From Flavihumibacter soli (GTDB taxonomy: Bacteria; Bacteroidota; Bacteroidia; Sphingobacteriales; Sphingobacteriaceae): a stretch of 64,000 nucleotides of DNA. Each line of letters opens with the position of its first letter. The stretch's first letter is position 1. The DNA is taken from NCBI RefSeq assembly GCF_010692725.1, contig NZ_JAAFZB010000096.1, positions 992,001 through 1,056,000 on the forward strand, written 5' to 3'. The position numbers and the translations under genes are program-made. The notes beneath the pieces are model-generated. The model ran no database searches. It saw only the letters and a program-made list of their open reading frames with translations, and was not told where the DNA came from. Positions 3,128 to 34,516 of the stretch are shown here, one piece after another.

Positions 3128-3139
3128 AAATTAACAGTA

Positions 3140-5478: not shown

Positions 5479-5486
5479 TAGTTTTG
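5479..5486 (+). promoter_or_regulatory. Putative Bacteroidota -7 promoter box
   Basis: TAGTTTTG matches TAnnTTTG exactly and is followed by C. It sits 58 nt before the start of the GT4 gene at 5544, so the last three genes of the plus-strand run may have their own promoter. No convincing -33 box is visible. Confidence 0.33.
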
Positions 5487-5543
5487 CGGCTTTTAAATAG
5501 AACCCGGCAGTACCCTTACCGGGAGCTGCCATGAATCAGCCTG

Positions 5544-6659: not shown

Positions 6660-6660
6660 T

Positions 6661-7845: not shown

Positions 7846-7850
7846 AATAA

Positions 7851-10100: not shown

Positions 10101-10118
10101 TCAGCCTACAAATCAGAA

Positions 10119-11381
10119 TTATGCATAAACGGGATATTCCTTTCTGATGACATACTCATACATCATGATCGCGCTCAGCTCAATGAAAAGCGTGTAGGCT
10201 CCCAAAAGGTAGATGTTCTTCAGTATACTGATACCAAAGGCGAGTGTAAATGCGAGAACAAGCAGCACCATCGCAATATTGAAGATTGAGCGGTTGTTTT
10301 CGCGGATCAACAGCTCCAGCACATTCAATGAATTCAGGGCAGCCGCAGCCGGCACCAGCGACATAATCCTCAAAACCGTCTCAGCTGTGGCATTAGGCTC
10401 GCCCGCCACTAAATAAATGATTGGCGCTGCAAAGATCATCATACACGCAGATATCACCAGGAATGCTAGTGTCAGCACTTTCTTTATTCTGTTTTTAAAG
10501 CCAATAAACTGCAGCGGATCTTCACTGAAGAGCCAGGCGGCCTTCGGATAAACAGAATTTGCGATCGAACTGATCATCAGCCGGGAGGACCAAGTGATCT
10601 TGTCGCAGAGGGAATATGCACCCAGCCACATAGGATTGCCCCAGCGGGCAAGCGCAAACAGCATCAATGATTGCTGCAGGTGAACTGAAATATTATTACC
10701 CACCAGAAAGAAATTGCTTTTCGAGAGTTCCAGCATATCTGCCTTTGAAGGAAGAATGAATGGCAACTGGTACTTCATCACACCCCTGATAATCAGAAAA
10801 ATATAGATCAGCGAATTTACCCCCCCGATCAGGAAGTTTACCCACAATGCATCGGAAGAGCCGTTTATCAAAAAAATAACCGATAAAATGATCAGCACTT
10901 TCCCGACTAGGTTAGCCATGCTATAGACAGCCAGCCGTTCGGTTCCCAGGTAGAGAAAAAGCGGGTTAACTACTTCGGCCAGTATAAGGGGAACAGCAAA
11001 AAGATAATACTCGTAGTGAACAAAATTGCCCAGGCCGGCCAATGTGAAAAAGACCATAAAGAGGAGAAAGATTAAAAACCGGATCAGCAGCGTGTTATAA
11101 AATACGCGTGAAAGGTTTTGAGGGTCATCCTTATGAACAGCCACATCCTTAATCCCCGACTGGCTGGTACCAAAGTTGACGACAATCCCCAGAAGTCCGG
11201 CAAATGCATTGGCCAGCATAACGAGTCCGAAGGCTTCCAGGCCAACGATCCGCGTAATTAAGGGATATAAAAGAATTAGTAAAAGAGCGTTTGAAAGTTG
11301 AATACTACTGAGATTAACAAAGTTGGCGAGAATTTTCGCCTTCTTTAACCTTTGAAACGTACCCGATGCCAATTCCTTCAA
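10119..11381 (-). CDS. Oligosaccharide flippase (Wzx)
   Basis: This 420-residue protein has about twelve to fourteen transmembrane helices with the Polysacc_synt layout (QLSNALLLILLYPLITRIVGLEAFGL near the N-terminus, and a central loop with SSRLMISSIANSVYPK near 265). It should move the undecaprenyl-diphosphate-linked repeat unit of module I across the inner membrane. The start at 11381 lies 10 nt after the predicted transcription start from the -7 box at 11398. It is co-transcribed with the polymerase-type gene that follows. It is the first of three flippases in the window, and the three are only distantly alike, which suggests different glycan substrates. Confidence 0.87.
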   Translation of the reverse strand: MKELASGTFQRLKKAKILANFVNLSSIQLSNALLLILLYPLITRIVGLEAFGLVMLANAFAGLLGIVVNFGTSQSGIKDVAVHKDDPQNLSRVFYNTLLIRFLIFLLFMVFFTLAGLGNFVHYEYYLFAVPLILAEVVNPLFLYLGTERLAVYSMANLVGKVLIILSVIFLINGSSDALWVNFLIGGVNSLIYIFLIIRGVMKYQLPFILPSKADMLELSKSNFFLVGNNISVHLQQSLMLFALARWGNPMWLGAYSLCDKITWSSRLMISSIANSVYPKAAWLFSEDPLQFIGFKNRIKKVLTLAFLVISACMMIFAAPIIYLVAGEPNATAETVLRIMSLVPAAAALNSLNVLELLIRENNRSIFNIAMVLLVLAFTLAFGISILKNIYLLGAYTLFIELSAIMMYEYVIRKEYPVYA

Positions 11382-11397
11382 AATTTTTTCTTTGAAG

Positions 11398-11405
11398 CAA
11401 AAATA
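11398..11405 (-). promoter_or_regulatory. Putative Bacteroidota -7 promoter box
   Basis: The minus strand reads TATTTTTGC here, a full TAnnTTTG match identical to those at 4390 and 45996. It stands 17 nt from the flippase start codon, implying a very short leader. No -33 box is evident, because the upstream DNA is a short-period AT-rich repeat. Confidence 0.38.
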
Positions 11406-11406
11406 G

Positions 11407-11466
11407 AGAATAGATATTAGATGTGAGAGAATAGATATTAGATCTTAGATATTAGATTTTTAGATG
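11407..11466. repeat. Short-period repeat, AGATATTAGAT type
   Basis: The unit (A)GATATTAGAT recurs at least three times with small variations over 60 nt, giving an AT-rich imperfect array. It does not encode a protein and is not a CRISPR. It directly abuts the promoter region of the flippase gene. Confidence 0.6.
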
Positions 11467-11520
11467 GAGATACGAGATAACGGCATGAGGTAAAAGGCAG
11501 TTGACTTTCAGCCTTCAAAA

Positions 11521-11618
11521 TAATCTGCGCAAATCTGCGATTCTTATCTGCGATAGTCTGCGGGAACCTGCATTCCATTAACAAATCGACAAATTGACTA
11601 ATCAGCAAATTGACAGTA
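11521..11618. repeat. Two intergenic short-repeat families (ATCTGCG and CAAATTGAC types)
   Basis: From 11521 to 11570 the word TCTGCG occurs four times at 10-14 nt spacing. From 11577 to 11618 the words CAAATCGAC, CAAATTGAC and CAAATTGAC follow one another. The second family recurs at 36031-36063 and, more weakly, at 44005-44030, always between genes. Confidence 0.6.
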
Positions 11619-11623
11619 AATAG

Positions 11624-11653
11624 AAAAAGCTGGAGTCCATTGGACTACCAGCT
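11624..11653 (-). terminator. Intrinsic terminator after the beta-helix lipoprotein gene
   Basis: The arms AGCTGG-AGTCC and GGACT-A-CCAGCT form an 11-bp stem with one bulged A and a 3-nt loop (11628-11653). On the minus strand the stem is followed by five T residues (11624-11628). It lies about 80 nt downstream of the lipoprotein stop codon at 11730, the right place and orientation to end that transcript. Confidence 0.6.
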
Positions 11654-11729
11654 CTTTCATCTAAATTAACGCTCTCAGATACTTATACCCGCTATCCGCA
11701 TGAAAAGTTTCGGTTTTACTTGAAATAGC

Positions 11730-15578: not shown

Positions 15579-16961
15579 CTAAAAAGCGTTCTCCTCCCCT
15601 TTCAGCACACTGATAATCGTAATAAATACAATACGAACATCCAGCATAGCTGACCAGTTTTCCATATACCAGATGTCGTGTTCCACACGTTTGCGCATCA
15701 GCTTTACTTCTTTTGTTTCGCCTCGCAGACCATTCACCTGGGCCCAGCCCGTAATACCCGGTTTGAGGAATTGCCTTACCATATACTGATCAATAAGCCC
15801 GCGGTACTGCTCCGTTTGGTTGACCATATGCGGACGCGGGCCCACAATACTCATGTTCCCGAACAACACGTTAAAGAACTGGGGAAATTCATCCAGGCTG
15901 GTGCGGCGCATGAAGCGGCCGATCGGTGTTACCCTGGGATCATTGCGTTGCGCCTGTTGTCTGTCCGAATCCGCATTCAAATGCATACTTCGGAACTTAT
16001 AACACCAGAAAGGCTTGTTATCACGGCCGCTGCGCAGCTGCCGGAAAAGTACCGGTCCCGGACTCTGCAACTTGATGAACAGGGCCAGTAGGGGATAAAG
16101 CCAGCTGATGATGAATACGATAACCAGTATGCTGAAGACAACGTCGAACAGGCGTTTTTTCACGCGGCTGGAAATTTCTTCAAGGGGCTCTGTCCGTACG
16201 CTGAGTACGGGAAACCCACCCAAATAACTTAATTTAAAGGAGGTTGCAGCGGATGACATATCCGGCACTACCTTCAGGCGGACACATTGTCTCTCTGCTT
16301 CCCGCATAAGCACCGGGACATCTCCCATCTGACCATAGGGGAGCGAAACAAACACTTCCTCCACACCGGTCGAGGCAGCCAGCACTAACTGTTCCATTGC
16401 TGATGCGTTCAGCTCACCGTTCGCATCTACCAAAATATTTTCTTCACCAAGAAAACCATGGAAATGAATGTTGTTTTGACCTTCCAGGTAGCTTGCAAGG
16501 CGAAGGGCGCCGCTGTTCTTTCCCATAACGGCCACCTTTTTACGGATCGCGAAATGCCGCATCATCAGCATCTCTATAGCTGTTCCGGTAAAGCGACTCA
16601 TGACCAGTGAAGTAAGAAACCCAGTATAAAATATGGTAATAAGCAGTCCCGAAAAGGCGGCTTGCTGGTTGATCATTAAAAATCCGCCAAACACAAAAAG
16701 ATGCAGGACCGCCGCCCGCCATGTGGCGCGGTAGATTGCTTCGGTCGAATGCACCGTATTGATCGAATATAACCTAAAAAAACCGGAGCACAGAAGCCAG
16801 ATGAAATTGCACAGAAGGATCCTGTAAATTAGCGCGCCTTCAATGGCCGGATGTCCGGTATAGCGCGCGTATAAGAGACTCGTGTAATAACATAAGTTCA
16901 ATAGAGCCAAATCACTCAGGCCAAGAACTATACGTAACAGGTAAAGGTATCTGGTTTGCAT
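15579..16961 (-). CDS. Undecaprenyl-phosphate sugar-1-phosphate transferase (WcaJ-like), second copy
   Basis: The 460-residue enzyme has four N-terminal hydrophobic helices, a Rossmann-like central domain (VAVMGKNSGALRLASYLEG near residue 145), another helix near 275-295, and the catalytic sugar-transferase domain. That domain shows KFRSMHLN, a DEFPQFFNVLFGNMSIVGPRP block and a PGITGWAQVNGLRGET block. It fits the undecaprenyl-phosphate glucose phosphotransferase group better than the copy at 1724, judging by the GWAQVNGLRGETKE block and the RVEHDIWYMENWS block. It should start the module II repeat unit. It ends in GEENAF, much like GDQNAY in the other copy. A plausible promoter lies just upstream, so it is probably its own transcript. 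Confidence 0.92.
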   Translation of the reverse strand: MQTRYLYLLRIVLGLSDLALLNLCYYTSLLYARYTGHPAIEGALIYRILLCNFIWLLCSGFFRLYSINTVHSTEAIYRATWRAAVLHLFVFGGFLMINQQAAFSGLLITIFYTGFLTSLVMSRFTGTAIEMLMMRHFAIRKKVAVMGKNSGALRLASYLEGQNNIHFHGFLGEENILVDANGELNASAMEQLVLAASTGVEEVFVSLPYGQMGDVPVLMREAERQCVRLKVVPDMSSAATSFKLSYLGGFPVLSVRTEPLEEISSRVKKRLFDVVFSILVIVFIISWLYPLLALFIKLQSPGPVLFRQLRSGRDNKPFWCYKFRSMHLNADSDRQQAQRNDPRVTPIGRFMRRTSLDEFPQFFNVLFGNMSIVGPRPHMVNQTEQYRGLIDQYMVRQFLKPGITGWAQVNGLRGETKEVKLMRKRVEHDIWYMENWSAMLDVRIVFITIISVLKGEENAF

Positions 16962-17187: not shown

Positions 17188-17373
17188 GCAATGATTTCCG
17201 GGCGGAGCTTGATTCTTAATGGAATAAGACGCGAAAGGGGAGCAAAAATTCAGAAATCGGGCGTAACAAAAATCCTATCCTCACTGGCAAGACGTTTTTA
17301 TCGATGAAATAACTAGATTCGGGCTCTAAATTTGAAGGAAGCGGGAATTAATATTCTGATAAATCAGCCTCTA

Positions 17374-18976
17374 TTGAAACATCCCTTATTCTTTTTTTGC
17401 ATTCTGGCAGCTTGCTTTTCTGTAAGAGCTCAAACCCCGAATGAGTATCTTCCCTATTCATTCCAGTCTTACCAAAAGATCGAGTCTAAAACTTACGACC
17501 CCTCTCTAAAATATCATACCGCATTCAAACCTTTCTTCGCGGATGACTCCCTGGTTGCATCAGGAATTAATTCCTCGTATAAATCCCGTCTTGACACTTT
17601 AAAAAATACCTGGCCGAACAGAAAGCTTTTTAACGAACACCTGGTCGAAATAAAGAGAAACGACTTCGCATTTTACGCAGATTTTCTTCCCGATGCTCAG
17701 GTAGGCAAATCAATCCAGGAGGATGATAACACCTGGTTGAATACATTAGGCTACCAGGCCGGCGGTACTATCGGGACAAAATTCTCCGTTCATACCAGCG
17801 GATACAAAAGTGAGCAAAAATTCCCGCTTTATCTGAACAGCTATGCTGAATCGACAAAAGTCGTTTCTGGACAAAACTATGTCCGGAATCCCTTGGATGC
17901 TGTTAAAGACTGGTCTTACTTTACCGCGCTTGTATCTTACACACCAGTAAAATATGTAAATTTTACTCTAGGCAAAGACAAGATGTTCCTGGGCGATGGG
18001 TACCGTTCAATGCTTCTGTCTGACTATGGCATTAACTATCCCTTTGTCAGAGTGACGGCATCGTTAGGCAACGTTCAATATACCGCTATGTGGGCAAGTA
18101 TGCAGGGAGCTAAAAGCACTGAAACTATCCCCTGAGGATAAGAACCGGAAGAAAGGAGGGGTATTTCATTATTTGGACTGGAATGTAAATGAAAAACTCG
18201 CCTTCGGTTTCTTCGATGCAATTATCTGGGCCGCAAAAGATGATCTTGGTAATAGCAGGAGTTTTGATTTTTCCTATGCGAGTCCTTTCATTTTCCTCAG
18301 ACCGCTGGAAGTCATGAGCGGGTCGCCTGACAATGCATTGATGGGCTTTACATCGAAGTACAAACCCGCTAAGGGCTTCACTTTCTACAGTCAATTCGCC
18401 CTGGATGAATTTGAAGCTAAAAACTTTTTTAAGGGCATCGGAAGTTCCCGGAACAAATGGGGGATCCAGATAGGTGCCCGGGGATCAGACATATTTCATG
18501 TCAAAGGCCTTAACTACCTTGCTGAATATAACACAGCCAGACCCTACACGTATTCTTCACGGAATTTGATCGGCAGTTATACCCATTCCGGCGAACCATT
18601 GGCACATCCGTTTGGAGCTAACTTTAAAGAGTTTGTTGGGCTGTTGTCGTATAGTTATAAAAGGTTCGATCTCTTTGCAAAAATGAATTTCGGAGAGTAC
18701 GGACTTGATATCGGGAACGATAATTATGGAAAAGACCCATTTAAGCCCTATCATACAGCTGTAAGAAGAGAAGAAAACAGCATAGCCCAGGGAATAAATA
18801 CAAACCTGTTTTATTTCGACTCAAGGCTCTCTTACCTGATCAATCCCAAAACTAATCTACGTTTCGAGGCTGGCACTGTACATCGGAAAGAAAGCAATGA
18901 ACTGACGAGTAACACCACTAGCTGGATAACCTTCGGGCTAAGAAGTACATTCAGGAATATTTACCAGGACATTTAA
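17374..18976 (+). pseudogene. RemB/Wzi-like outer-membrane barrel gene with a one-base frameshift
   Basis: Two consecutive frames read as one ~533-residue protein. The first half has a signal peptide (KHPLFFFCILAACFSVRAQ) and barrel sequence up to KSTETIP, where a TGA appears at 18133. The second half continues one base later as PEDKNRKKGGVFHYLDWNVN. A run of four C at 18129-18132 (ATCCCCTGAG) explains the shift: three C would restore the frame. The C-terminal half resembles the gliding-motility-associated RemB group within the Wzi-like barrels (YSQFALDEF, EYNTARPYTYS, GEPLAHPFGANFKEF). The start is uncertain: TTG at 17374 gives the best signal peptide, TTG at 17332 is 14 codons earlier, and no ATG fits. 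A sequencing error cannot be excluded. Confidence 0.75.
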
Positions 18977-18984: not shown

Positions 18985-20265
18985 TTAATTTTGCATCGCT
19001 GCATCGGCAGCCTCAATCTCTTCAGAACTATGCCATTCCTGAGTTACCCTGTGCAGGATGGCTTCTTTTTCAAGATATTGCTCTGCATATGCCCGGGCGT
19101 TTACCCGTTGTAAAGAGTAGTCCTTAGTGCAGGCGTTTAAAATAGCAGCCAACAATTGCTCTTTATTCTCTGGTGGAACAACAATCCCCATATTATTGAC
19201 TTTGACGACATCATGCAGGGTGGTTCCAGCATCCGCTGTTACAAGGGCCAGTCCACCCGCGGCAAGTATAGTAGTGAGCTTAGAGGGCATCACCAGGTCA
19301 CTGGCTCCGCCTTTCTGAATCACCAGATGCACCGTGACCATATTTAGAAAACGGTTAAAAACAGCCTGTTTCTGCAAGGGGAGGAAACTGATATTATCCG
19401 TTCCTGCCTCCAGGGACATCTGCTGGAGGATCTCTTTGTATGGACCTGTCCCACAGATGACTAGTTTAATATGAGAATGCACTCTCAGCTGAACAGCGAT
19501 CCCGATTAAAACTTCCAATCCCTGCTTTTCGCCAAGGCTTCCGGAATATAAAACGATCTTATCCTCAGCATTGAAGCCCCATTCCGCTTGAATATTTTTA
19601 TCTCTTATGGGATGAAATTTTAAAGTATCCACCCAATTAGGGAATAAAGAAACTTCTTTATCAATCTTCAATTCCTTTTTTCTAACCATGCCAGCCGAAA
19701 TGGTACTGATATGATCGGCTTTTGAAAGGATATACTTCTCCATCCGGAAAAGGAAGCTGAAGATCCACTCCGGCTTCAATATTTTAAGATCTCGTGCTGC
19801 CTCTATCTGCAGATCCTGAACATGATAAATGATCCGCCCGCCCTTAAAGAAGCGATAAAATACGGCCAGAAAACCCAGGTGAAAGGGCGGTGCAATACAA
19901 TAAATGTTTTTATGCCCGGGTTTAAACAGCAGCATCACAATCATGAAAAAAGCCGAAAGAAAAAAGCTCGCTTCGTGGATCAATCTTTTCAGACCACTGG
20001 GCATACCCGGCACATAGAAAGGACACCTGTACAGTGTTAACCTGCCGTCTTTCAAAACCTCTTTTTTATAGAACTTTCCCCAATAAGGCTTTTGAACTTC
20101 CCAGTACGGGTAATATGGAAATGTAGTGACTACATTACACTCATAGCCGTTATCAGCAAACCAGGTCACCATTTCACCGGTGTAGCGCCCAATTCCCGTC
20201 AGTTCAGGAAGGCAGTTGATACCAATAACAAGAATTCGGTTGTCTCTATCGTCTCTGTCTTTCAA
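18985..20265 (-). CDS. WcaI-like GT4 glycosyltransferase
   Basis: The 426-residue protein matches the colanic acid WcaI/WbuB-type transferases. The N-terminus has ILVIGINCLPELTGIGRYTG and VVTTFPYYPYWEV, followed by the long linker IYHVQDLQIEAARDL near residue 145. The C-terminal donor domain has IVLYSGSLGEKQGLEVLI near 228 and the WcaI-specific KGGASDLVMPSKLTTILAAG near 318. The N-terminal MKDRDDRDNR is unusually charged and could be an over-extension, though no better ATG follows. It is the last gene of the long minus-strand run of module II and ends 8 nt from the convergent barrel gene. In E. coli WcaI acts on a fucose-containing colanic acid intermediate; here the donor is unknown. Confidence 0.85.
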   Translation of the reverse strand: MKDRDDRDNRILVIGINCLPELTGIGRYTGEMVTWFADNGYECNVVTTFPYYPYWEVQKPYWGKFYKKEVLKDGRLTLYRCPFYVPGMPSGLKRLIHEASFFLSAFFMIVMLLFKPGHKNIYCIAPPFHLGFLAVFYRFFKGGRIIYHVQDLQIEAARDLKILKPEWIFSFLFRMEKYILSKADHISTISAGMVRKKELKIDKEVSLFPNWVDTLKFHPIRDKNIQAEWGFNAEDKIVLYSGSLGEKQGLEVLIGIAVQLRVHSHIKLVICGTGPYKEILQQMSLEAGTDNISFLPLQKQAVFNRFLNMVTVHLVIQKGGASDLVMPSKLTTILAAGGLALVTADAGTTLHDVVKVNNMGIVVPPENKEQLLAAILNACTKDYSLQRVNARAYAEQYLEKEAILHRVTQEWHSSEEIEAADAAMQN

Positions 20266-20463: not shown

Positions 20464-21300
20464 TTAGGATTTCTGCTGCTTCTCCAAAAGTTCTCTGGCT
20501 TTCAAAATAATAAAGTATTCGTATATCGATTGAAGGGTAGCATAGATAAAGCCTGCCCGGCCATCCAAAAATGCCCTCCGCCATATCACCATATACAACC
20601 ATTTAAGGACAGGTCTGCCTGGAAGTTTATAAAAAAGACCTTTCTGGTGATAACGCTTTTGGCTGAAATCCTTACTGAAAAGGGCTTTGCGAATGGAAAA
20701 CTCCATCCCACCCTGCTGTTCGTCCATCCAGCGTTTGGCTTCCATTGCCGAATACTGATTATGCTTGTTCAGCCAATGGCTATATCCTTTTGAAAAAGGG
20801 TAATGATCAAAAAAACCTTGCAGGTCTCTAATCTGACCCTTCACCGCAATCACTTCGTTGATTTCACGATGATATTCTGCCTGCTTATGCCGCACTAAAC
20901 GAACATAGAACGGCGAGATCTGCGCGTTCTTCAGCCATGATTTACCAAGAAAATCCCGTCTCCGGATCCTGAAACCATCAACCTCCGAACCTGCATCTTT
21001 AATCGCCGTACTGAGCAACGGAACCAATTCAGGGGGAATTCGCTCATCTGCGTCTAATATCAGAAGCCATGAGTATTTATAATCCAGGGTTCTTAAGGCT
21101 GCGTTCCTTTGAGCGGAATAATTGTCAAACACCCGTTGGCAAACTCTCGCTCCGGCATTTTCAGCAAGCTCTTTTGTCCGGTCATTGCTGAAGGAATCGA
21201 AAACGTGAATATCATCACACCAGGAAACAGAAGACAGGCAGCCGGGAAGATCCTGCTCCTCGTTTTTGGTAAGGATAAGAACAGAGATACAATTTATCAT
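20464..21300 (-). CDS. GT2 glycosyltransferase of the WaaE/KdtX type
   Basis: The product is about 278 residues from the ATG at 21300 (MINCISVLILTKNEE). ATGs at 21309 and 21345 would extend it by 3 or 15 residues and overlap the aldo/keto reductase gene. Features are ISVLILTKNEEQDLPGCL, the FDSFSNDRT variant of the donor loop, SAQRNAAL, and the catalytic metal site LILDADERIPPEL near residue 81. All are as in the beta-1,4-glucosyltransferase WaaE family. Two more helices near the C-terminus (WLYMVIWRRAFLDGRAGF) suggest membrane contact. It should add one hexose to the repeat unit or to a core-like acceptor. It is in the middle of the module II operon. Confidence 0.85.
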   Translation of the reverse strand: MINCISVLILTKNEEQDLPGCLSSVSWCDDIHVFDSFSNDRTKELAENAGARVCQRVFDNYSAQRNAALRTLDYKYSWLLILDADERIPPELVPLLSTAIKDAGSEVDGFRIRRRDFLGKSWLKNAQISPFYVRLVRHKQAEYHREINEVIAVKGQIRDLQGFFDHYPFSKGYSHWLNKHNQYSAMEAKRWMDEQQGGMEFSIRKALFSKDFSQKRYHQKGLFYKLPGRPVLKWLYMVIWRRAFLDGRAGFIYATLQSIYEYFIILKARELLEKQQKS

Positions 21301-21331
21301 TTCACCCATTACGAACGGTTGGTTAGCACTA

Positions 21332-22183
21332 TTAATTCCCAACATTGATTGAGCTTTGTCTCAGCAATTCTGTGTTTTGCTTAATATGTTCTTCCCGGAA
21401 CATCGAACATAATATGACACTCTCAGGAAAATCGGCAAATAATTTTTCGAGTTTCGCTTTCGGCGCCAGCGTATTATCTCCACTTTTTAAGGGTGAGAAA
21501 ATAATATTCGATCTTTTACCGCGCTCACTAACTGACTGGACGTAACCCTCCGCGCCTGGAGAATTATCGAACTGTAATATGTCTAGCTTTTCAAGATAGC
21601 TTTGGTGGAGATATTTATGCGTGCGATAGAATGCAATCCCAAATCCACGTATTTTCCCTCGCGCCTTTAACATTTCAGCTGATTCATAAAGCTCATCGAA
21701 ATTAATAATTGTTGTAACAGGCTCATGAACGAATAAATAATCGAGATAATCTGTATTTAACGCCCGCAGGCTTTGGTCAACATTTTTGAGCATCTGCGCT
21801 GTGTTTAATACGATCCGGTTGTGAAACCTGTCAGCAATATTCATTGACTTGCTCACCCTTTCTTCGCGCGTTTTAAACTCACTCTTAAGTGATCTTGCAA
21901 GAGGCTTTAGCGGGCTTAGTATTTTAGCTTTCCAATTTGCTTCAATACCAAATTTGGTTGACAACACCACTTTATCCCGGCGTTGTCTGAAAACTTTGCC
22001 AACAAACTTTTCTGCTTCACCATAGCCGTACGACCGCGCTAAATCATAATGAGTAATTCCATGATCGAACGCTGAATCAAGTGCCCGTCGAGCTGCAGAA
22101 GCTCCAACCGAACCAAGGATCGGTGCGCATCCAAATCCTAAAGCGGAGGATCGCAGTCCCTCAATTAACTCTACTTGTCTCAT
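21332..22183 (-). CDS. Aldo/keto reductase family protein
   Basis: The 283-residue protein has the TIM-barrel aldo/keto reductase motifs: LGFGCAPILGS at the N-terminus, THYDLARSYGYGEAE (catalytic Asp and Tyr, residues 44-58), VLSTKFG (catalytic Lys near 75) and DYLFVHEP (catalytic His near 152). It should reduce a carbonyl with NADPH. Its start lies inside the upstream GMC oxidoreductase gene (23-nt overlap), so the two are translated together and may carry out linked oxidation and reduction steps on one sugar, for example net epimerisation or deoxygenation. It is slightly shorter than typical (~310-330 residues), and the C-terminal cofactor loop appears reduced. The substrate is unknown. Confidence 0.82.
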   Translation of the reverse strand: MRQVELIEGLRSSALGFGCAPILGSVGASAARRALDSAFDHGITHYDLARSYGYGEAEKFVGKVFRQRRDKVVLSTKFGIEANWKAKILSPLKPLARSLKSEFKTREERVSKSMNIADRFHNRIVLNTAQMLKNVDQSLRALNTDYLDYLFVHEPVTTIINFDELYESAEMLKARGKIRGFGIAFYRTHKYLHQSYLEKLDILQFDNSPGAEGYVQSVSERGKRSNIIFSPLKSGDNTLAPKAKLEKLFADFPESVILCSMFREEHIKQNTELLRQSSINVGN

Positions 22184-23828
22184 TATTGATATGATTAGCT
22201 AGCCTGACCGCAAAGGCACCTAAAAAAAATGTAGGGTTAGCCTGACCGGATGTAGGAAATACTGAGCTACTGCAGACATATAGATTTTTAGTGCCCCAAA
22301 CTTTGAGATTCTTATCGACAACGCCTTTGTCGGGTGATCCCGAAATTCTTGTAGTCCCGGATTGATGAATTCCGTCGCGAGACATTTCCCTAATGGCCTG
22401 ATTCAGATGTTCTTTTTCAAACCAATACTCGAGCTTACCACTATCGGATGCCCTTAATTCCTGGTCCAGCATTTCATGCAGTTTGATAATTGATTCAATA
22501 TCCGGTTCGGTCAATTTATAATGAATTTCCAGGGTTTCTCCATCCCTCCCCAATACCATACAATTTTCTTTCACAGGAATCTGTTCCGAATGAAAATGAA
22601 GGGCGTACCGATTTTGCGGACTGTAAAGAAAAACGCCAGGTAACTTTCTTTTTAACAAGTATCGTTTGTAAAAAATCAAGCCCGGTGTCAGTAAGGATCC
22701 AGGCAAATCCTTGATTATGTTCCAAAGGTGCTTTCTAATGTCATTGACCTTACCCTTCGTAATTGACTGCGCAATTGCTGGCGGTGCAAGTCTTTTGCCT
22801 ACGAAGGGAACTAACATCATCAAATACATGAATGACATTGCTCCGCTTTTATGGTTTGCGTTGTAGTATAAGGGATTGTCAAGCCAGATAGCGGTATTTA
22901 ACAAATTTTGCTTAACCAGAAACTCAGTTGAGAACTGAAATCTTCTGCGCACGTAAGTTCCGTCTCTATCACTGATAAAGCCGTAATCAGTTCTTTTGGG
23001 ATCGCCGCTGAACTTAACTGATGCAATTTTACCTGACAAATGACTTTGATAATATCTTCCTAAAGATTCCGGTTCCTTATCTAACAACCTAAAGAGCTCC
23101 TTATTACGAAGTAAAATCCGGGTAGTTTCCTGAGTACCTGCTGCTAAAATATATGTTTTCGACCTGATTGCCAGAATAGTGGCAGATTGAACATTCCTAA
23201 CCGTGAGTATTGACACTGTGCCGTTATCATCCGGAGATCCAAATTCACGAGCTTCATATCCAGCAAGCAACGTGACATTATTCAATCTCTCAAGTTCATC
23301 CATGTACCTGGTTCCAAAACGAGTAGGCATGCTATATCGTTCCAGAATAGTATCAGTAACAATACTGGATTTGAAATTTTCAGCTATTGGCTGCTTTTGA
23401 AGATCCGGAAGATCATTTACATGAAAGATCGGATCCCCGCACTCGAAATATTGAGCTGCACTTGGTAGATAGTTTTTAATTTCGGTTAGCAATCCCGTAT
23501 CCCAGGTACACCCGCCTTCTAAAATAGGCCGGTCAATAAAGTCCACCTCATCATACATAACACACCGGCCTCCCCAGGTTGCCGATGTACCTCCTAAACC
23601 TTTATTGGTGCAATCATAAGGATCATGGTGGTTTAGTGGATTAGAATTCCGGATAGTCTCATCCAGCGCATTTGTACCGGGCTGCTTTCCCGGCAAACCA
23701 TATTCAATGATCACCACTGAGCTTTCGGGTGATGAGCCAGCATATTCTAAAGCAGTGATCATTCCCGCCGGACCACTGCCGACAACACAGACATCGTAAA
23801 TCAGCTCTTTCTCGTCTTTAACTTCCAT
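22161..23828 (-). CDS. GMC-family FAD-dependent oxidoreductase
   Basis: The 555-residue enzyme shows the FAD-binding GxGxxG strand YDVCVVGSGPAGMITALEYA (residues 10-29) and KGLGGTSATWGGRC near 90, the flavin-contact region. The C-terminal GMC_oxred_C domain has HQSGTTRISGSPDKGVV near 485 and a closing PTSGQANPTFFLGAFAVRLA. It should oxidise an alcohol group, probably of a sugar or sugar-lipid, passing electrons to FAD. It overlaps the WcaF-like gene upstream by 11 nt and the aldo/keto reductase downstream by 23 nt. Such enzymes are not part of the usual Wzx/Wzy gene set, so this pair likely makes a special sugar or modifies one. The substrate cannot be read from sequence. Confidence 0.85.
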   Translation of the reverse strand: MEVKDEKELIYDVCVVGSGPAGMITALEYAGSSPESSVVIIEYGLPGKQPGTNALDETIRNSNPLNHHDPYDCTNKGLGGTSATWGGRCVMYDEVDFIDRPILEGGCTWDTGLLTEIKNYLPSAAQYFECGDPIFHVNDLPDLQKQPIAENFKSSIVTDTILERYSMPTRFGTRYMDELERLNNVTLLAGYEAREFGSPDDNGTVSILTVRNVQSATILAIRSKTYILAAGTQETTRILLRNKELFRLLDKEPESLGRYYQSHLSGKIASVKFSGDPKRTDYGFISDRDGTYVRRRFQFSTEFLVKQNLLNTAIWLDNPLYYNANHKSGAMSFMYLMMLVPFVGKRLAPPAIAQSITKGKVNDIRKHLWNIIKDLPGSLLTPGLIFYKRYLLKRKLPGVFLYSPQNRYALHFHSEQIPVKENCMVLGRDGETLEIHYKLTEPDIESIIKLHEMLDQELRASDSGKLEYWFEKEHLNQAIREMSRDGIHQSGTTRISGSPDKGVVDKNLKVWGTKNLYVCSSSVFPTSGQANPTFFLGAFAVRLANHINNETSRVN

Positions 23829-24417
23829 GAACCAACTCGCTTTCCTGAATCAAAAAATTCTTCCTCTTCTTTACAAATTTGCAGGGGTTACCTGCATACA
23901 CTGACCATGAATCCAGGTTCCGGGAGGTGATTGAAGTTGCGCCTAAAACGCTGCCTGCAGCACAGCGTACCCCGGGAAGAACGGTAGCCTTTGCACATAT
24001 CCATACATAGGAATCGATAATGATCTCTTTCTTGATGTATGTGAACCGGATGGAATCGTAATCATGGGTAGCACCACATAAATAGGAATCCTGAGATAAT
24101 ATAGCATGGTGCCCCAGGAAAACTCCCCCAGGGTTGTAAATTTCAACACCCGGACCAATAGTTACTAGATCTTCTGTCTCCAGTAACCAGGGCGCCCAGA
24201 TTTTAGAACTTGGATAAATAAAATTGTGCTTGCCCAGTTTGCCTCCAAATACTTTAATCACTAAAGACCTCCACCTGTGTAATGGATTGGGGGTCCAACG
24301 ACAGAGTAAAGTCCAGGCAATGATCCATAGAAATCTGAGCAATTTCTGAGAAAACGGAAAGGCGGATTGAATATAGAAATCCCGTTCGTCTCTCAAGGTT
24401 GACTGTTTAAACGACAT
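23818..24417 (-). CDS. WcaF-like colanic acid-type acetyltransferase
   Basis: The 199-residue protein is a left-handed beta-helix acyltransferase of the WcaF group. It opens with SFKQSTLRDERDFYIQSAFP, has a hydrophobic segment (LLRFLWIIAWTLL), and then hexapeptide repeats (IGPGVEIYNPGGVFLGHHAI; catalytic-type CGATHDYDS; IIIDSYVWICAKATVLPGV). I use the ATG at 24417. The frame is open to 24456, but the 13 extra residues do not look like the family start. WcaF acetylates a fucose in colanic acid. Here it should O-acetylate a sugar of the module II repeat unit, using acetyl-CoA in the cytoplasm. It overlaps the GMC oxidoreductase gene by 11 nt. Confidence 0.87.
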   Translation of the reverse strand: MSFKQSTLRDERDFYIQSAFPFSQKLLRFLWIIAWTLLCRWTPNPLHRWRSLVIKVFGGKLGKHNFIYPSSKIWAPWLLETEDLVTIGPGVEIYNPGGVFLGHHAILSQDSYLCGATHDYDSIRFTYIKKEIIIDSYVWICAKATVLPGVRCAAGSVLGATSITSRNLDSWSVYAGNPCKFVKKRKNFLIQESELVHGS

Positions 24418-24590
24418 ATTTAGCGGCTTGCATGTAAATGAGAAAGATGAGCCCAACTTATTCTATACCCCCTGATTGTTGGATACAGACTTCCCCAGGT
24501 TTTCTTTTATCCATCGTGGTATTGTAGGTCTTTCTAAAACATATTTTGTAATAGTAGTTAGTTAACATGTTAGCATTTAGGAAAATAAAT

Positions 24591-25817
24591 TCAGTTATAA
24601 TTCTCAACAATAACAGTGTTGTGTACCGATATAGCTTCAAAAAATTTATGAGCAGCCGGTTTTACATTAAAATGCTCCTGATAAGATTTTCTGGCCTTTA
24701 CGCTCATTTCTTTTCTTTCAATTGCGTCTAAACACATCCAGGATTGCAAAAGCATCTCAGTTCCTTCGAGGGTATCCTCAGCAACAATACCTCCCCCAGT
24801 ATCTTTTATTTCTCGCCAGATATTTACTTGATTTGATATCAGCACCGGTTTGGAACAGGCCAAGGCCTCTGCCACCGCAATTCCAAAATTCTCCTGATGG
24901 CTGGGTAGTACAAAAGCCTCACAGCCATACATAGCCCCCCATTTCGAATCACCGGAAAGCATACCTGGAAAAAAAATATCTGCTCCACTCGCTGTTGAAT
25001 CGGATGCCAGGAGTTTCATACTTCTGCCATATTCAGTGTCTAGCCCGGGCCCGGCAATTACAAGCTTAGGCAAACTGAGCTCAGGGTTAAGTTTAATAAA
25101 GCCAGTGTATGCTTTGATTAAAAGATCTACACCCTTTTTTTCGTGAATTCTACTGAGAAAAAGGAAATACCGTTTATTTCGCAGGGAGGGAATTTTTTTC
25201 AAAAACTCAGATTTCATTAAATCAAAAAAAGCAGGTGGTGATTCAATGCCATAACCGACATTCAACTCCCGCCGAGGCTTGTAACCCTTAAATGTTAGTC
25301 GAGCTAATTGCAATTCTTCTAGACAAGTAAATAGTACACCGTCCGCTTCCCGAATTACTCTTTTTTCAATCAGATGCCAATAAAACCAGTTTCTGATTGC
25401 CTTAAGTCTCCTACTTTTTGCAAGTTGAAAATAGGGGTCAAGCATGCCATGTGGCATAATGAACAATTTCGGAACTCTTTTACCCGGCTTAGTCTTACTT
25501 TTATATAACTTTAACGCTCTTTGCACAGCAAACGCGTGATATTGCCAAAGGCCATTAACGACAACCACATCAAAGCGTGCGAAATTATCCAGAAGCCAGG
25601 GAATTAATTGTCTGCTATATTTCCACGTTCCATTTACAGGGCCTATCGCATGAATGGGAAATAAGTCCTGGCCAAGAAAACTGGCTGATGGCGAATCTAA
25701 ACTTACAACCTCCCGATGAACCCCAAAATCCGATAAAGCTTGATTGGAGTTTCGGATGCCCTGGCAAGGTCCGCCTGTTAAAGGATCCATAGATGTTATA
25801 ACGTGAAGTAACTTCAT
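24591..25817 (-). CDS. GT4 glycosyltransferase
   Basis: The 408-residue GT-B protein has an N-terminal loop MKLLHVITSMDPLTGGPCQG (acceptor domain, with the glycine pair of this subgroup) and VVVVNGLWQYHAFAVQRAL near residue 84. Its C-terminal GT4 domain has YFLFLSRIHEKKGVDLLI near 218 and the E-x7-E motif in PSHQENFGIAVAEALAC near 305. This subgroup is common next to WcaF genes in colanic-acid-like loci. It lies upstream of the WcaF-like gene with a ~170-nt gap that holds nothing convincing, and 42 nt downstream of the GT2 gene. It should add one sugar to the module II unit. Confidence 0.87.
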   Translation of the reverse strand: MKLLHVITSMDPLTGGPCQGIRNSNQALSDFGVHREVVSLDSPSASFLGQDLFPIHAIGPVNGTWKYSRQLIPWLLDNFARFDVVVVNGLWQYHAFAVQRALKLYKSKTKPGKRVPKLFIMPHGMLDPYFQLAKSRRLKAIRNWFYWHLIEKRVIREADGVLFTCLEELQLARLTFKGYKPRRELNVGYGIESPPAFFDLMKSEFLKKIPSLRNKRYFLFLSRIHEKKGVDLLIKAYTGFIKLNPELSLPKLVIAGPGLDTEYGRSMKLLASDSTASGADIFFPGMLSGDSKWGAMYGCEAFVLPSHQENFGIAVAEALACSKPVLISNQVNIWREIKDTGGGIVAEDTLEGTEMLLQSWMCLDAIERKEMSVKARKSYQEHFNVKPAAHKFFEAISVHNTVIVENYN

Positions 25818-30204: not shown

Positions 30205-31590
30205 TCAAACCTGATTAAATTGAGGGAAGCCCTTCTTTATGGACAAGCAAAGAAGAGGCTTAAACGATTTCACTAGTTCAAGAAATGTGTCATTAGTCAT
30301 CTTCACCCCCGCCCTTATCGTATATATACTTAAACCAATTTCTATTACAAGAAGACAGTAAACAGTTAAAATCAATGAATGATAGTAATGTGTACTAATA
30401 ACTGCCGTTCCCATAGATAGTATCGCAAGCACGATGAAAAGTATTCCAACCGTAGAATGCCTGTTTGTTGCCATTAAAGCAACACTGCTGGTATTCCAAA
30501 TGCAGCGGAAAACAAGTACAACTAAAAAGGATAACAACAGACCAAAATTAAACTCCAGCTTTCCGTGAGTCCATGTAGTGAATAGTAGTCTTCCGAACAA
30601 TAAAAGCATGAGGGAAATCAAAATTGCGCCAGCAGTTGCAGTAACAAAAGCCTTTCTATGTAACTCCCTCATCCTGGCAACATCCTTTTTCCCGTAGGCT
30701 ATTGAAAATTCAGGCCAAACTGCTTGAAGGATCGAGCCTAATAATTGATTAAGGAAACTTGTGAGAGTTCTTGTGGTATTATATAAAACCAGCGCTTGTG
30801 CACCAAAGTACCGGTTTACCAGCAAAGAAAAGCCCTGGAAAATTATTCCATTTCCAATAGGAAAAAACATAAAGGTTATGGAAGGATAAAAGATTTTTTT
30901 GAACAGGCTCCAGCTGCCACTCTTAATGCTCAATTTATAGGGAAAATAATTCTTAGTGTCAAAAAATTTATAAAAAAATGCAACAATTCGCGGTATTAAA
31001 TATAGTGTAACTAAATACGTAATCGATAAATGCGTGAAGAGTGACGTCATTAGCATTAACCCTTCTGCTAACCTTACACAATTATTTATATAAACAGCTT
31101 TGTGATTTAACGACGATGACCTATAGATTGCATCAGGCACAGAACTAATCATACCGATAAATATATAAGCCACAAGCATTAGAAAGATGTAGTTTGATTC
31201 TTCTCTAGAAATTGCATGCAATCCTAAACTGGAAACAATATCAAAGGCAAAAACGTAAATAGCTGATCCCGCTATTGAAATTAAAAAAACAAAAATTACA
31301 AGTAAATAATTATTGGTCATCAACGATTTGCATTCCTCAATATTTCCTTCCTCATTCTTGATTACAAACTGGTTAATTGTTACACTATTGAGACCAATAT
31401 CCGACATGGCAAAAAATGACGAAATTGCCGTCAAAACAATCCAGTCACTATATACTTCCACATCCCAAAAGTGCAGGTATACAGGCACCAATATAACCTG
31501 GTTAAATATAAGAACTCCAATACCGAATAGATTTGCGACCAGGTTCTTTCTAATACTTGATAGGCCTGACTTCATCTCTTTAAATTCCAT
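30205..31590 (-). CDS. Oligosaccharide flippase (Wzx), module II
   Basis: The 461-residue protein has about fourteen transmembrane helices of the MATE/Wzx type, with LVPVYLHFWDVEVYSDWIVL near the N-terminus, a conserved loop RTLTSFLNQLLGSILQAVWPEF near residue 280 and a long C-terminal helix set. It should flip the module II lipid-linked unit. It overlaps the upstream acyltransferase gene by 19 nt, and an alternative ATG (residue 6, at 31575) would shorten the overlap. The next gene, a GT4, follows after 19 nt. It is larger than the flippase at 10119 and shares only the general fold with it. Confidence 0.85.
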   Translation of the reverse strand: MEFKEMKSGLSSIRKNLVANLFGIGVLIFNQVILVPVYLHFWDVEVYSDWIVLTAISSFFAMSDIGLNSVTINQFVIKNEEGNIEECKSLMTNNYLLVIFVFLISIAGSAIYVFAFDIVSSLGLHAISREESNYIFLMLVAYIFIGMISSVPDAIYRSSSLNHKAVYINNCVRLAEGLMLMTSLFTHLSITYLVTLYLIPRIVAFFYKFFDTKNYFPYKLSIKSGSWSLFKKIFYPSITFMFFPIGNGIIFQGFSLLVNRYFGAQALVLYNTTRTLTSFLNQLLGSILQAVWPEFSIAYGKKDVARMRELHRKAFVTATAGAILISLMLLLFGRLLFTTWTHGKLEFNFGLLLSFLVVLVFRCIWNTSSVALMATNRHSTVGILFIVLAILSMGTAVISTHYYHSLILTVYCLLVIEIGLSIYTIRAGVKMTNDTFLELVKSFKPLLCLSIKKGFPQFNQV

Positions 31591-32173: not shown

Positions 32174-34516
32174 CTATTTAATTGACCTGTCTTTTTTAAA
32201 GCCACTTAGTGTCTCCTGCAGCAGATTATTACTTTCCTGGGTGTAATAACCATAGCCGGAACCATATCCATACTTACCTCCTGCTTTGACGGCGTTAAAT
32301 ACCAAATTCAGGTTTTTAAATTTTTCTCGCCTATATAGGTTATCAAGCAGTCTCAGGCGTTCCTTCGGGGTATATTCATTACGTAAAACGAATAGTGTTG
32401 CGTCGGCCTCCCGTTCAAGAATTTGAGCGTCGGTTACAATCCCTACCGGCGGAGCATCGGTAATAATATAATCAAACGTCTCGCGGAGTTCGGTGTAAAG
32501 TTCGGCAAGGCGGCCATTTAACAGAAGTTCTGAAGGATTAGGAGGAATATCACCGCAGGTAATAATATAATAATTGTCCTGTCCAGCAACCGGGAAGATG
32601 ATCTCATCGAGAGAAGCTTTTCCAATCAGATAATTACTAAGCCCCAGCTTATTTGGCATCTTCAGCGCCGCATGCAATCTGGGCTTGCGAAGATCCAATT
32701 CAAGGATGATTGTCTTTTTGTCGGTCATTGCGAGACTTGCACCCAGATTCAGGGAAATAAACGACTTCCCTTCCCCGCTCATGCTGGACGTAAACAATAT
32801 GCTTTGAACCCCTTTCCCCGGATTCAGGAAAGAAAGGTTTGTCCTAAGTGAACGAATCTGCTCACCAATAATATTTCGATTATTTGTTCCTATTACAAGC
32901 GCCTCATAGTGCTCTGTATAGGAGACATCAGCAAGTATCGGAGTTTCTGTCGCCTTCTCAATATCCTTCCGGCTTGTAATCTTATCGTTGAGCAGATCGA
33001 TGATGAATATGATACCCAAAGGAATTGCTAATCCAGCAAGCGCAAAGACCAGGTAAATATTCCGCTTTAACGGCTTAACCGGCTCAGCACTGTTTCGAGC
33101 CATATCAATCGTCCGGCTGTCGGAAACTGTGGAGGCATAGGATAAAGCCGTTTCCTCACGCTTTTGAAGCAGATAGACATACAGATTATTCTTGATGCCC
33201 TGCTGGCGGGTGATATCCACCAGTGCGCGTTCCTTTCCCGGAACGGTACGGATCATGCCTTCCATCTGCCGGGTTCGACCCTCCAGCTGCTGGCGGGTAA
33301 TGGAAAGGCTGTTACGCAGGGTCTGAAGGTTCTCTGTCAGGCTGCTCTTAGTACCGGTGATCTGGTCGTCTAGGGCCGTCACGATCGGGTTATCGGCTTT
33401 TACCATTTTCATGGCCTGCACCCTTTGGGATTCAAGTTCGGAAAGTGACTGGATTAGTCCCAGCAATGTGGGGTCGCTAATGCCTAAGGTTGCCGGTACG
33501 GTACCCGTGGAATTGTCCTTATTGCGAACATAGCGTTCAATATTTTCAAGAACACTTTGCTGGATCTTTATCTGGCTCAATTGGTTATCGTTCTCCTTGA
33601 CACTCTCAAGGAACAAGCCGGATTCCGCACTGATATCGGTGATCCCCTCCCGGGCCTTATAATTCTCAACGGTCTTTTCTGCATCGATCAGGTCGCGGGA
33701 AATCAGCACCAGGCGATCCTCGATGAAACGCAGGGTATTGGCCGCTACCTTATTCTTATCTTCCAAACCGGCAAGATTGTAAACCTGTACCAGTTTATTG
33801 AGAATATCGCGCCCGCGAAAAGGCTTAGCGTCCTGCATGCTCAACAGGAGAACGGATGATGTCTTACTACTGGGCTCGATCGTTAAGTTGGCAAGGAGAT
33901 CTTCCGACATGGCTTCAACCGGGCTAACGACCAGTTTGAGTCTCTTCACTTCTGGACTTTTGCCAGTCAGTTTTAGTGTCAATGTGCCGTAGGCGGTCCG
34001 CACTTCCTTATCCACCGGGATTTTAATACCATTTATGCTTGCGTTGTTCGCATCAATGATTTCGAGGTCGAGGGGCTCCTTGATAGCCAGTTCGTTCACC
34101 TCGCGGAAGTGCAGGTTTACCGGGCTCTCGGAATATAGTTCTTCTTCTTTTTTGAAATTCTCTTTAGTAAAAAAACGTACCTGCAGATTAAGGTCAGTCA
34201 CCACCTTTTCCATCAGCGTATAGGAGCGCAGGATCTCGATCTCGTTATCCACTACTTTGTTGGAAGAGAACAGATTCAGTTCCTTCATCATGGCATCCTG
34301 GCCAAGACCCTTCTTCTCATCCTTGATCAGGATACTGCCCTGGATCTTATAAACCGGCGTCTGGTAGCGCAGGTAGACAAAGGCAGCTGCAATCGCGATC
34401 GTTAGTGAGAGCACGAACCATTTCCAGTAGTAGAGATATTTGTAAAGAAGTTCCTTGAGGTTGAAATCGCTTTCTTCTTCCTGGGCGAAGAAAAAGGGGT
34501 CGACGGGCTGATGCAT
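32174..34516 (-). CDS. wzc: Wzc-like polysaccharide co-polymerase and tyrosine autokinase
   Basis: The 780-residue protein combines a Wzz-type chain-length domain with a bacterial tyrosine kinase. Two membrane helices (about residues 33-52 and 492-512) flank a long periplasmic, partly coiled-coil domain. The cytoplasmic kinase has Walker A MSGEGKS near 579-585, Walker A' ELDLRKPR near 606 and Walker B YIITDAPP near 683. A C-terminal tyrosine cluster (Tyr749, 751, 755, 757, 758) is the autophosphorylation site. It controls chain length and export together with Wza, whose gene is 113 nt upstream. It is the only Wzc in the window, so the other modules may share it or not need it. Length is normal for Bacteroidota Wzc proteins. 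Confidence 0.93.
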   Translation of the reverse strand: MHQPVDPFFFAQEEESDFNLKELLYKYLYYWKWFVLSLTIAIAAAFVYLRYQTPVYKIQGSILIKDEKKGLGQDAMMKELNLFSSNKVVDNEIEILRSYTLMEKVVTDLNLQVRFFTKENFKKEEELYSESPVNLHFREVNELAIKEPLDLEIIDANNASINGIKIPVDKEVRTAYGTLTLKLTGKSPEVKRLKLVVSPVEAMSEDLLANLTIEPSSKTSSVLLLSMQDAKPFRGRDILNKLVQVYNLAGLEDKNKVAANTLRFIEDRLVLISRDLIDAEKTVENYKAREGITDISAESGLFLESVKENDNQLSQIKIQQSVLENIERYVRNKDNSTGTVPATLGISDPTLLGLIQSLSELESQRVQAMKMVKADNPIVTALDDQITGTKSSLTENLQTLRNSLSITRQQLEGRTRQMEGMIRTVPGKERALVDITRQQGIKNNLYVYLLQKREETALSYASTVSDSRTIDMARNSAEPVKPLKRNIYLVFALAGLAIPLGIIFIIDLLNDKITSRKDIEKATETPILADVSYTEHYEALVIGTNNRNIIGEQIRSLRTNLSFLNPGKGVQSILFTSSMSGEGKSFISLNLGASLAMTDKKTIILELDLRKPRLHAALKMPNKLGLSNYLIGKASLDEIIFPVAGQDNYYIITCGDIPPNPSELLLNGRLAELYTELRETFDYIITDAPPVGIVTDAQILEREADATLFVLRNEYTPKERLRLLDNLYRREKFKNLNLVFNAVKAGGKYGYGSGYGYYTQESNNLLQETLSGFKKDRSIK

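Follow-up and report, generated by a model that had tools for sequence, protein, structure and literature searches.

Recurrent pairing of a GMC-fold oxidoreductase with an aldo/keto reductase in bacterial polysaccharide loci: candidate partners in two-step sugar remodelling

The DNA analysed here, referred to below as the window, is a 64,000 nt stretch of the Flavihumibacter soli genome (NZ_JAAFZB010000096.1, positions 992,001-1,056,000). Within it, a GMC-fold FAD oxidoreductase (GMC) and an aldo/keto reductase (AKR) are encoded amongst genes for polysaccharide assembly, with the minus strand carrying all genes of the neighbourhood (Table 1). The products of the initiator and chain-length genes we take, from sequence, to be a WcaJ-type initiating sugar-phosphate transferase and a Wzc-type chain-length/tyrosine kinase protein, respectively. 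A gmd gene is found in the same genome, ~21 kb outside the window. The start of the acetyltransferase gene is likely to be the ATG at 24417, with the in-frame TTG at 24456 also possible.

Table 1. Features of the GMC-AKR neighbourhood in the window (window coordinates)
Feature	Position	Strand	Basis
Initiator gene frame	15579..16961	-	Translation; homologues in many loci
WcaI-family GT4 glycosyltransferase	18985..20265	-	NF007640, 390 bits (cut-off 276)
GT2 glycosyltransferase	20464..21345	-	PF00535
Aldo/keto reductase (AKR), 283 aa	21332..22183	-	PF00248; AKR fold
GMC-fold FAD oxidoreductase, 555 aa	22161..23828	-	PF05199; model fold match over residues 6-555
Hexapeptide O-acetyltransferase, WcaF-like	23818..24456	-	NCBIfam PRK10502, E 7.7e-43, below cut-off
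HpsP-like GT4 glycosyltransferase	24591..25817	-	Family searches, under HpsP cut-off
Wzx-type flippase	30205..31590	-	PF13440
Chain-length gene frame	32174..34516	-	Translation; homologues in other loci

Four of these genes form an overlapping series. The original prediction reported overlaps of 11 nt (acetyltransferase and GMC) and 23 nt (GMC and AKR), both of which are confirmed, but did not mention a third, of 14 nt, between the AKR and GT2 genes; the interval that it assigned to the acetyltransferase, GMC and AKR (22161-24417) contains the first two, taking the ATG start, but the AKR gene runs beyond it. Gene overlap by itself is ordinary in compact operons.

The GMC protein passes the cut-off of one GMC profile only, PF05199 (GMC_oxred_C, E 1.1e-19). 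PF00732 (GMC_oxred_N) gives no match to it, though elsewhere in this genome the same model picks out five GMC genes. The FAD motif (G17/G19/G22) is conserved across type A, the set of GMC loci to which the window belongs and in which an AKR, where there is one, follows the GMC, and His488 and Asn531, which correspond to the catalytic residues of the GMC family, are invariant in a 39-row alignment and in all type A and type B rows (type B is described below). Also conserved, in 24/24 type A rows and in the readable type B rows, are Arg88, Arg164 and Arg294-296. In fold comparisons, the GMC model best matches sugar-acting GMC enzymes, in line with the sugar-directed role originally predicted: fructose dehydrogenase (Z 34.5, rmsd 4.4 over 412 residues) and C-glycoside oxidase (Z 32.6, rmsd 4.3 over 403 residues) are amongst the nearest folds, as is pyranose oxidase, with choline oxidase close behind in the list (Z 31.0). 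In the model, the helical stretch spanning residues 329-393 is hydrophobic with a net positive charge, and it was considered as a membrane-binding insert that might serve a lipid-linked substrate. This reading was dropped, and the region is not counted as evidence, because it is common to rhizobial relatives outside glycan loci and its helical moments are mostly low.

The AKR matches PF00248 (E 4.5e-23), and its tetrad Asp47/Tyr52/Lys77/His153 is invariant in a set of 24 type A sequences, as it is in a set of 17 sequences of type A order plus eight of type B. Its model matches (beta/alpha)8 AKR folds at Z 23-26, including DepB (Z 24.2, rmsd 3.3 over 237 residues), a glucose-bound AKR and enzymes with diverse substrates. 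By tetrad and modelled fold, the protein belongs to the AKR superfamily and is a predicted carbonyl reductase. With catalytic residues conserved in both, the GMC and the AKR look intact.

How regularly the two genes occur together was assessed in 42 non-duplicate type A GMC loci with readable downstream DNA. Seven locus pairs were merged as duplicates (L019=L033, L020=L039, L023=L043, L026=L048, L027=L051, L028=L049 and L120=L053) and two loci were left out, one where the contig stops after the GMC gene (L062) and one with a partial GMC (L067). An AKR gene lies immediately downstream of the GMC gene in 26 of the 42, and all 26 are set among glycan genes. In three of the loci compared (L063, L112 and L113) the AKR overlaps another frame and was detected by tblastn together with the ORF list. 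Conservation of GMC-AKR adjacency within polysaccharide loci, which the original prediction proposed to check, is thus supported in the type A loci examined, and the contrary outcome named in advance as evidence against the idea, that the pair would be found mostly outside such loci, did not materialise. The two genes are also closely spaced: with AKR starts picked by sequence motif, 23 of the 25 AKR-bearing loci measured (window included) have a distance between -23 and +4 nt, and 16 of these overlap by at least 1 nt. Two loci stand somewhat apart. In L119, which was retained as an outlier, the GMC gene precedes the AKR gene and the locus also contains polysaccharide genes and a phage integrase gene. 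L031 is a weak instance, with a GMC frame of 446 aa that has no FAD motif and is separated from the AKR by ~320 nt.

The surrounding genes are conserved to differing degrees. The HpsP-like GT4 gene belongs to the conserved neighbourhood of the compared loci, a GT2 homologue comes after the GMC or AKR gene in most of them, and a WcaF-like homologue adjoins the GMC gene upstream in 33/42. The original prediction had grouped the acetyltransferase with the other two genes, but five loci have the pair without an acetyltransferase directly upstream (L021, L032, L034, L040 and L051), which does not support it as an integral third member.

Surveys of whole genomes point the same way. Among 395 genomes of the phylum, strong GMC and strong AKR orthologues are both found in the same two, one of which is the window's own. 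Among 300 genomes of the order, strong AKR orthologues are found in five, all of them within the 12 that have a GMC of at least 58% identity, and all adjoining the GMC gene. A search of 13 GMC-bearing genomes for the AKR orthologue at E 1e-20 shows it in four, beside the GMC gene every time. Three genomes have a weaker AKR match (near 1e-31) and no GMC match.

A second, remote type of pairing has the reverse order, AKR then GMC. This arrangement (type B) is found in 8/8 loci of one GMC branch (at least 64% identity); a looser relative with a 4-nt overlap is located on a Sinorhizobium plasmid, and one further genome has the type B order as a weak case. The type A and type B GMC branches separate in the tree and a constraint placing them in a single clade is rejected (AU p 0.0009), a test that was chosen after the tree had been seen and that involves long branches. 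The pairing therefore probably originated, or was retained, on two or more occasions. The paired AKRs lie apart (96/88) from 25 other AKRs of three genomes, a narrow background from which two loci of the wrong length were left out (L140 and L148), and AKR presence changes three and eight times, respectively, on two trees.

These observations bear on one alternative, namely that the two genes are ordinary operon neighbours that catalyse no common reaction and are co-inherited by horizontal transfer of EPS blocks. Whole EPS blocks are indeed common to the window and two Flavobacterium species, and gene overlaps are common in compact operons. We nevertheless consider this explanation very unlikely, given that the pair is found away from its usual neighbours in three loci (L032, L034 and L051), is present in other phyla and recurs in a different GMC branch with the two genes in reverse order.

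The remaining 16 of the 42 type A loci have a GMC gene with no AKR detectable in the stretch, which argues against an obligatory epimerase and implies that the GMC can apparently carry out its step unaided. Twelve of the 16 form one Mucilaginibacter clade with gmhA/hldE-type heptose genes, suggesting that the substrate may have changed. No substitute AKR-like family was identified across the 16 loci, where genes present in fewer than four loci are mostly unassigned; ten have gmd-like SDR genes and five an SDR-like fragment at the edge of the stretch. It is possible, if distinctly less than an even prospect, that the GMC yields a keto-, aldehydo- or uronic-type oxidised sugar, which is kept in the glycan or used by another enzyme, with the AKR acting at another carbon or correcting unwanted oxidation, and that no epimerisation takes place. 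The heptose genes fit such a scheme, as does the relative L084, where the GMC gene follows one for a DegT-type aminotransferase, as if a ketone were aminated there. Set against this, the strong AKR orthologues found in the genomes surveyed are only beside a GMC gene, and there is the second pairing on its own branch; both suggest direct coupling of the two enzymes.

Distant GMC relatives offer a different perspective. Twelve plasmid loci were picked from the 65 GMC matches listed, and an AKR gene adjoins the GMC gene in one of these 12. Glycan genes are clear in four (L085, L089, L092 and L093), a GT2 gene lies ~3 kb off in L090, and in the other seven examined glycan genes are not evident; judged from gene content, distant plasmid relatives thus often appear to lie outside glycan loci. 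In L058 a bare GMC gene lies near SMC and peptidase genes. Some distant relatives are in catabolic or unrelated surroundings; these surroundings, along with the diverse substrates of the AKR fold matches and the presence of choline oxidase among those of the GMC, would suit a pair acting on a non-sugar component or substituent of the glycan, such as a polyol or a lactyl or acyl side group, or on a capsule-linked small metabolite. We regard this as unlikely, however, as the nearest GMC folds are sugar-acting and every AKR-bearing type A locus is a glycan locus. Also noted was L088, a remote GMC relative that lacks an AKR but lies close to a YdjC gene.

Finding the same pairing in polysaccharide clusters of distant bacteria leads us to propose a functional partnership in which the GMC and AKR together remodel a single repeat-unit sugar in two steps, probably by epimerisation via a keto intermediate, a proposal to which we give an even chance of being correct. 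Intact catalytic residues in both proteins, the sugar-GMC fold of the model and the tight, recurrent pairing in glycan loci support the partnership; beyond that, we infer that the two enzymes act in turn on the same substrate, that a keto intermediate is formed and its stereochemistry inverted, and what the carrier is. In the first step the FAD enzyme would oxidise a secondary hydroxyl to a ketone, which the AKR, presumably NAD(P)H-dependent, would then reduce from the opposite face, giving the epimer. The substrate would probably be a phosphate-bearing intermediate, a sugar linked either to a nucleotide or to undecaprenyl, that is formed close to the WcaI-like and WcaF-like steps.

For most rare sugars in the surface glycans of bacteria, the accepted explanation is SDR-type nucleotide-sugar dehydratases and epimerases. 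Among the papers listed by searches of an open-access library, none describes a GMC-AKR pair in glycan synthesis, as judged by title and opening abstract text. If the proposal is correct, a recurrent GMC-AKR unit in Wzx/Wzy-type loci would represent a different route to such sugars, and sequence data would allow rare sugars to be predicted for a number of Bacteroidota, as well as for some Verrucomicrobiota and Acidobacteriota. Glycan structures could then readily be compared between the naturally occurring versions with and without the AKR.

Several known systems resemble the window in part. With colanic-acid-type clusters it shares a WcaI-family transferase that scores over cut-off, a WcaF-like acetyltransferase, a WcaJ-type initiator and gmd in the genome, but matches to the wcaI equivalog and to both WcaF models are under cut-off (146 versus 192 bits for the acetyltransferase) and, to our knowledge, the colanic acid cluster has no GMC or AKR. 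With membrane-bound fructose dehydrogenase, C-glycoside oxidase and bacterial pyranose oxidases, the window GMC shares a near-full-length fold, the His-Asn pair and the FAD motif. It differs in being only ~15-18% identical to them, in having no GMC_oxred_N profile match and in sitting with a reductase in a polysaccharide assembly operon.

The two-step oxidation/reduction route to an epimer put forward in the original prediction has two precedents. DepA is a PQQ-dependent dehydrogenase. With DepB it is reported to bring about the C3 epimerisation of deoxynivalenol, oxidation being followed by AKR reduction of the ketone to the epimer (PMC9427786, PMC6056672). The window pair shares the AKR fold of DepB, but its oxidising partner is an FAD GMC protein, so it is not a member of this system, and the DepA/DepB substrate is a mycotoxin. 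DprE1 belongs to the VAO-type flavoproteins, DprE2 to the SDRs. Together, these products of two separate genes are reported to make up the mycobacterial decaprenylphosphoryl-ribose 2'-epimerase, which epimerises a lipid-linked sugar during the synthesis of envelope glycans (PMC3035642). The likeness is one of logic only; by profile and modelled fold the window pair is GMC plus AKR and not a member, and by analogy it is a possible functional counterpart of DprE1/DprE2. Taken further, and here we are rather doubtful, the GMC and AKR may constitute a two-gene epimerase module for polyprenyl-linked glycan intermediates, with folds unlike those of DprE1/DprE2, that arose or was retained in two or more GMC branches whose gene orders are reversed, and in which the optional AKR decides between an oxidised sugar and a rare epimer.

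The operon in the window is transcribed from the minus strand and its genes are listed below. As the original prediction had it, the gene for the GMC-type FAD flavoprotein oxidoreductase overlaps the preceding acetyltransferase gene by 11 nt and the following aldo/keto reductase (AKR) gene by 23 nt; a further overlap of 14 nt joins the AKR and GT2 genes. The interval then given for all three genes (22161-24417) has to be corrected, as it leaves the AKR gene out. Wzx lies close to the operon, as do genes that we take, from their translations, to encode a WcaJ-type initiator and Wzc.

Genes of the window operon in transcription order
Gene	Position	Strand	Remark
HpsP-like GT4	24591-25817	minus	first in transcription order
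WcaF-like acetyltransferase	23818-24456	minus	probable ATG 24417
GMC-type flavoprotein	22161-23828	minus	after acetyltransferase
Aldo/keto reductase (AKR)	21332-22183	minus	after GMC
GT2	20464-21345	minus	after AKR
WcaI-family GT4	18985-20265	minus	after GT2

Two neighbouring frames on the plus strand, 17332-18135 and 18173-18976, each encode 267 aa and, to judge by their translations, may be the halves of a split gene of the outer-membrane capsule-assembly type. Elsewhere in the window, genes for two Wzi-like capsule assembly proteins (36070-37704 and 39922-41571), together with one for a Glycos_transf_4 initiator (46029-47006), point to another polysaccharide locus adjoining the first.

Profile searches matched the AKR to PF00248 and the GMC protein to PF05199, the sole profile to pass its cut-off; PF00732 gave no match to the window GMC, though the same profile recovers five further GMC genes elsewhere in the genome. 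AlphaFold models built from alignments of 28 (GMC) and 18 (AKR) sequences have mean pLDDT values of 82.7 and 82.3, respectively. The fold nearest to the GMC model is fructose dehydrogenase, with 412 residues aligned at rmsd 4.4 (Z 34.5); the C-glycoside oxidase 7dve follows at Z 32.6, and then come pyranose oxidases. Because choline oxidase scores nearly as high (Z 31.0), the sugar preference predicted from the model is suggestive rather than decisive. For the AKR model, PA4992, L-galactose dehydrogenase and AKR11C1 are nearly tied as nearest folds, with DepB and a glucose-bound AKR among further matches. Across the aligned families, H488 and N531 of the GMC protein are invariant, as is the tetrad of the AKR (D47, Y52, K77 and H153).

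The pairing was followed in 42 loci whose GMC orthologues share 51-66% identity with that of the window and whose downstream DNA is readable, duplicates having been removed (the window, L021, L022, L024, L025, L029, L087 and 35 of 37 named loci, L062 and L067 being dropped). An AKR gene lies directly downstream of the GMC gene in 26 of these loci (type A order), all 26 of which, some metagenome-assembled, contain glycosyltransferase or sugar-transferase genes in the stretch, bearing out the expectation that the adjacency would be found inside polysaccharide loci. Taxonomically the 26 belong to Bacteroidota, except for three contigs of Verrucomicrobiota (L052, L061, L063) and one of Acidobacteriota (L068). 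Among the 25 loci in which the spacing was measured (L087 being excluded), the two genes lie between -23 and +4 nt apart in 23 and 42 nt apart in L056 and L063. A WcaF-like acetyltransferase gene directly precedes GMC in 33 of 42 rows, counted with L062 and without L087, and is absent from this position in the AKR-bearing L021, L032, L034, L040 and L051. Since the gene preceding the pair is oppositely oriented in L032 and L034, and that following it in L034 and L051, the GMC-AKR pair is the tighter unit. In two Flavobacterium loci, L035 (F. ajazii) and L064 (F. hydrophilum), ten genes match the window operon in its order at 47-70% identity (AcT2, GT4, Wzy, GT-D, GT2, GT4, acetyltransferase, GMC, AKR, GT2), with one or two other genes interspersed, and on this gene content their polysaccharide may be similar.

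Co-occurrence across genomes was also analysed. Among 395 genomes of the phylum, strong GMC (E 0) and strong AKR (E 1e-128 or better) orthologues are found in the same two, one being the window's own; a third has a remote GMC match only (7e-31). Among 300 genomes of the order, a GMC match reaching at least E 1e-20 was obtained in 14, and in 12 of these its identity is no less than 58%; the five strong AKRs all fall within these 12 and all adjoin GMC, and three further AKR matches near 1e-31 are in genomes lacking a GMC match. A search of 13 GMC-bearing relatives at E 1e-20 found the AKR in four, in each case beside GMC.

In the remaining 16 of the 42 loci tblastn found no AKR in the stretch, nor was any AKR-like family seen among the gene clusters shared by loci. 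Twelve of the 16 (L022, L024, L025, L039, L041, L043-L046, L048, L049 and L065) form a single Mucilaginibacter clade in the GMC tree (support 100/99), so that their lack of AKR is one phylogenetic event, not twelve. This clade retains the GT4, acetyltransferase, GMC and GT2 genes, with GmhA-, HldE- and GT9-like genes replacing the AKR, as if, judging from gene content, heptose had entered the glycan. Exactly these twelve AKR-less loci carry all three kinds of gene; in the 25 AKR-bearing loci that were clustered, GmhA- and HldE-like genes occur only in L068 and GT9 only in L029. As candidates for another reductase in the AKR's stead, genes for gmd-like SDR proteins are present in 10 of 16 AKR-less versus 7 of 25 AKR-bearing loci, and an SDR-like fragment at the edge of the stretch in 5 of 16 versus 1 of 25. 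The remaining four of the 16 are L038, L050, L057 and L058. The last is on a Terrimicrobiaceae MAG contig, where, within 2940-11629, the neighbours of the GMC orthologue are genes for SMC, an M20 peptidase and a Fic-domain protein, not glycan genes. AKR presence requires three changes on the GMC tree. The occurrence of GMC in loci lacking AKR suggests that the oxidation step is usable alone.

A second arrangement, AKR then GMC (type B), involves a separate GMC branch. One genome (L086/L087) has both types: its second GMC (31% identity to the window's) overlaps an upstream AKR (24% identity) by 4 nt, with glycosyltransferases and a Wzy-type gene around. The close branch, drawn from 271 genomes of the same order, comprises this query and seven loci at 64% or more, and in all eight AKR directly precedes GMC (overlapping by 4 nt in six) and a glycosyltransferase homologue is present in the stretch. 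L118 (51%) has no AKR directly upstream. On a Sinorhizobium sp. BG8 plasmid (L089), AKR (9060-10004) and GMC (10001-11671) lie near a GT2, a bacterial sugar transferase and a Wzz-domain gene; L031 is a weak further case. In the GMC tree the two types are set apart by AKR-less relatives, and their union as one clade is rejected (AU p 0.0009, in a test chosen once the tree was known and with long branches). A branch with support 96/88 separates the AKRs of both types from a background of 25 further AKRs from three genomes, a narrow sample, again with long branches.

More divergent arrangements were also seen. L119 has GMC then AKR with an O-antigen ligase-type and a flippase-type gene, and a phage-type integrase that, within 5796-9791, comes just before this divergent pair hints at a mobile block. 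On a Rhizobium sp. Q54 plasmid (L084, 7548-10698) a DegT/DnrJ/EryC1-type aminotransferase gene directly precedes a GMC relative, a gene order that would fit amination of the oxidised sugar in place of its reduction. A Jannaschia plasmid (L093, 2173-7587) has a GMC relative, with no AKR, near an XrtD exosortase, a sulfotransferase and glycosyltransferases.

What might the substrate be? All 24 aligned type A rows contain Arg88, Arg164 and Arg294-296, as does every readable type B row (the start of L031 is missing); the signature is found in only three of 16 other relatives on the alignment (L030, L090 and L118, all AKR-less) and is absent from L119. Its presence in both types would fit a phosphate-bearing substrate. 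The WcaI-family transferase and WcaF-like acetyltransferase of the window recall colanic acid assembly, in which WcaI might transfer fucose (PMC4443731). The window's genome has gmd (for GDP-fucose) some 21 kb outside the window, and several related loci contain gmd-like or fcl-like genes; that the substrate is fucose is a guess.

The original prediction was that GMC and AKR could together make a rare sugar epimer. Such a scheme is also the most likely one here: both enzymes would act on a common, carrier-linked sugar intermediate, the FAD enzyme would oxidise one hydroxyl to a ketone, and the AKR would reduce the resulting carbonyl, probably with inversion. The pairing, its genomic context, the modelled folds and the conserved catalytic residues are observed, and from them a common substrate, the ketone, the inversion and the carrier are predicted. 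In an open-access library, covered through titles and the starts of abstracts, we found no description of a GMC/AKR pair for exopolysaccharide, capsular polysaccharide, O-antigen or an epimerase. Precedents for the oxidation/reduction logic are provided by DprE1/DprE2 (PMC3035642) and DepA/DepB (PMC9427786, PMC6056672); both systems appear to follow the logic proposed here for the window GMC/AKR pair, but with other folds.
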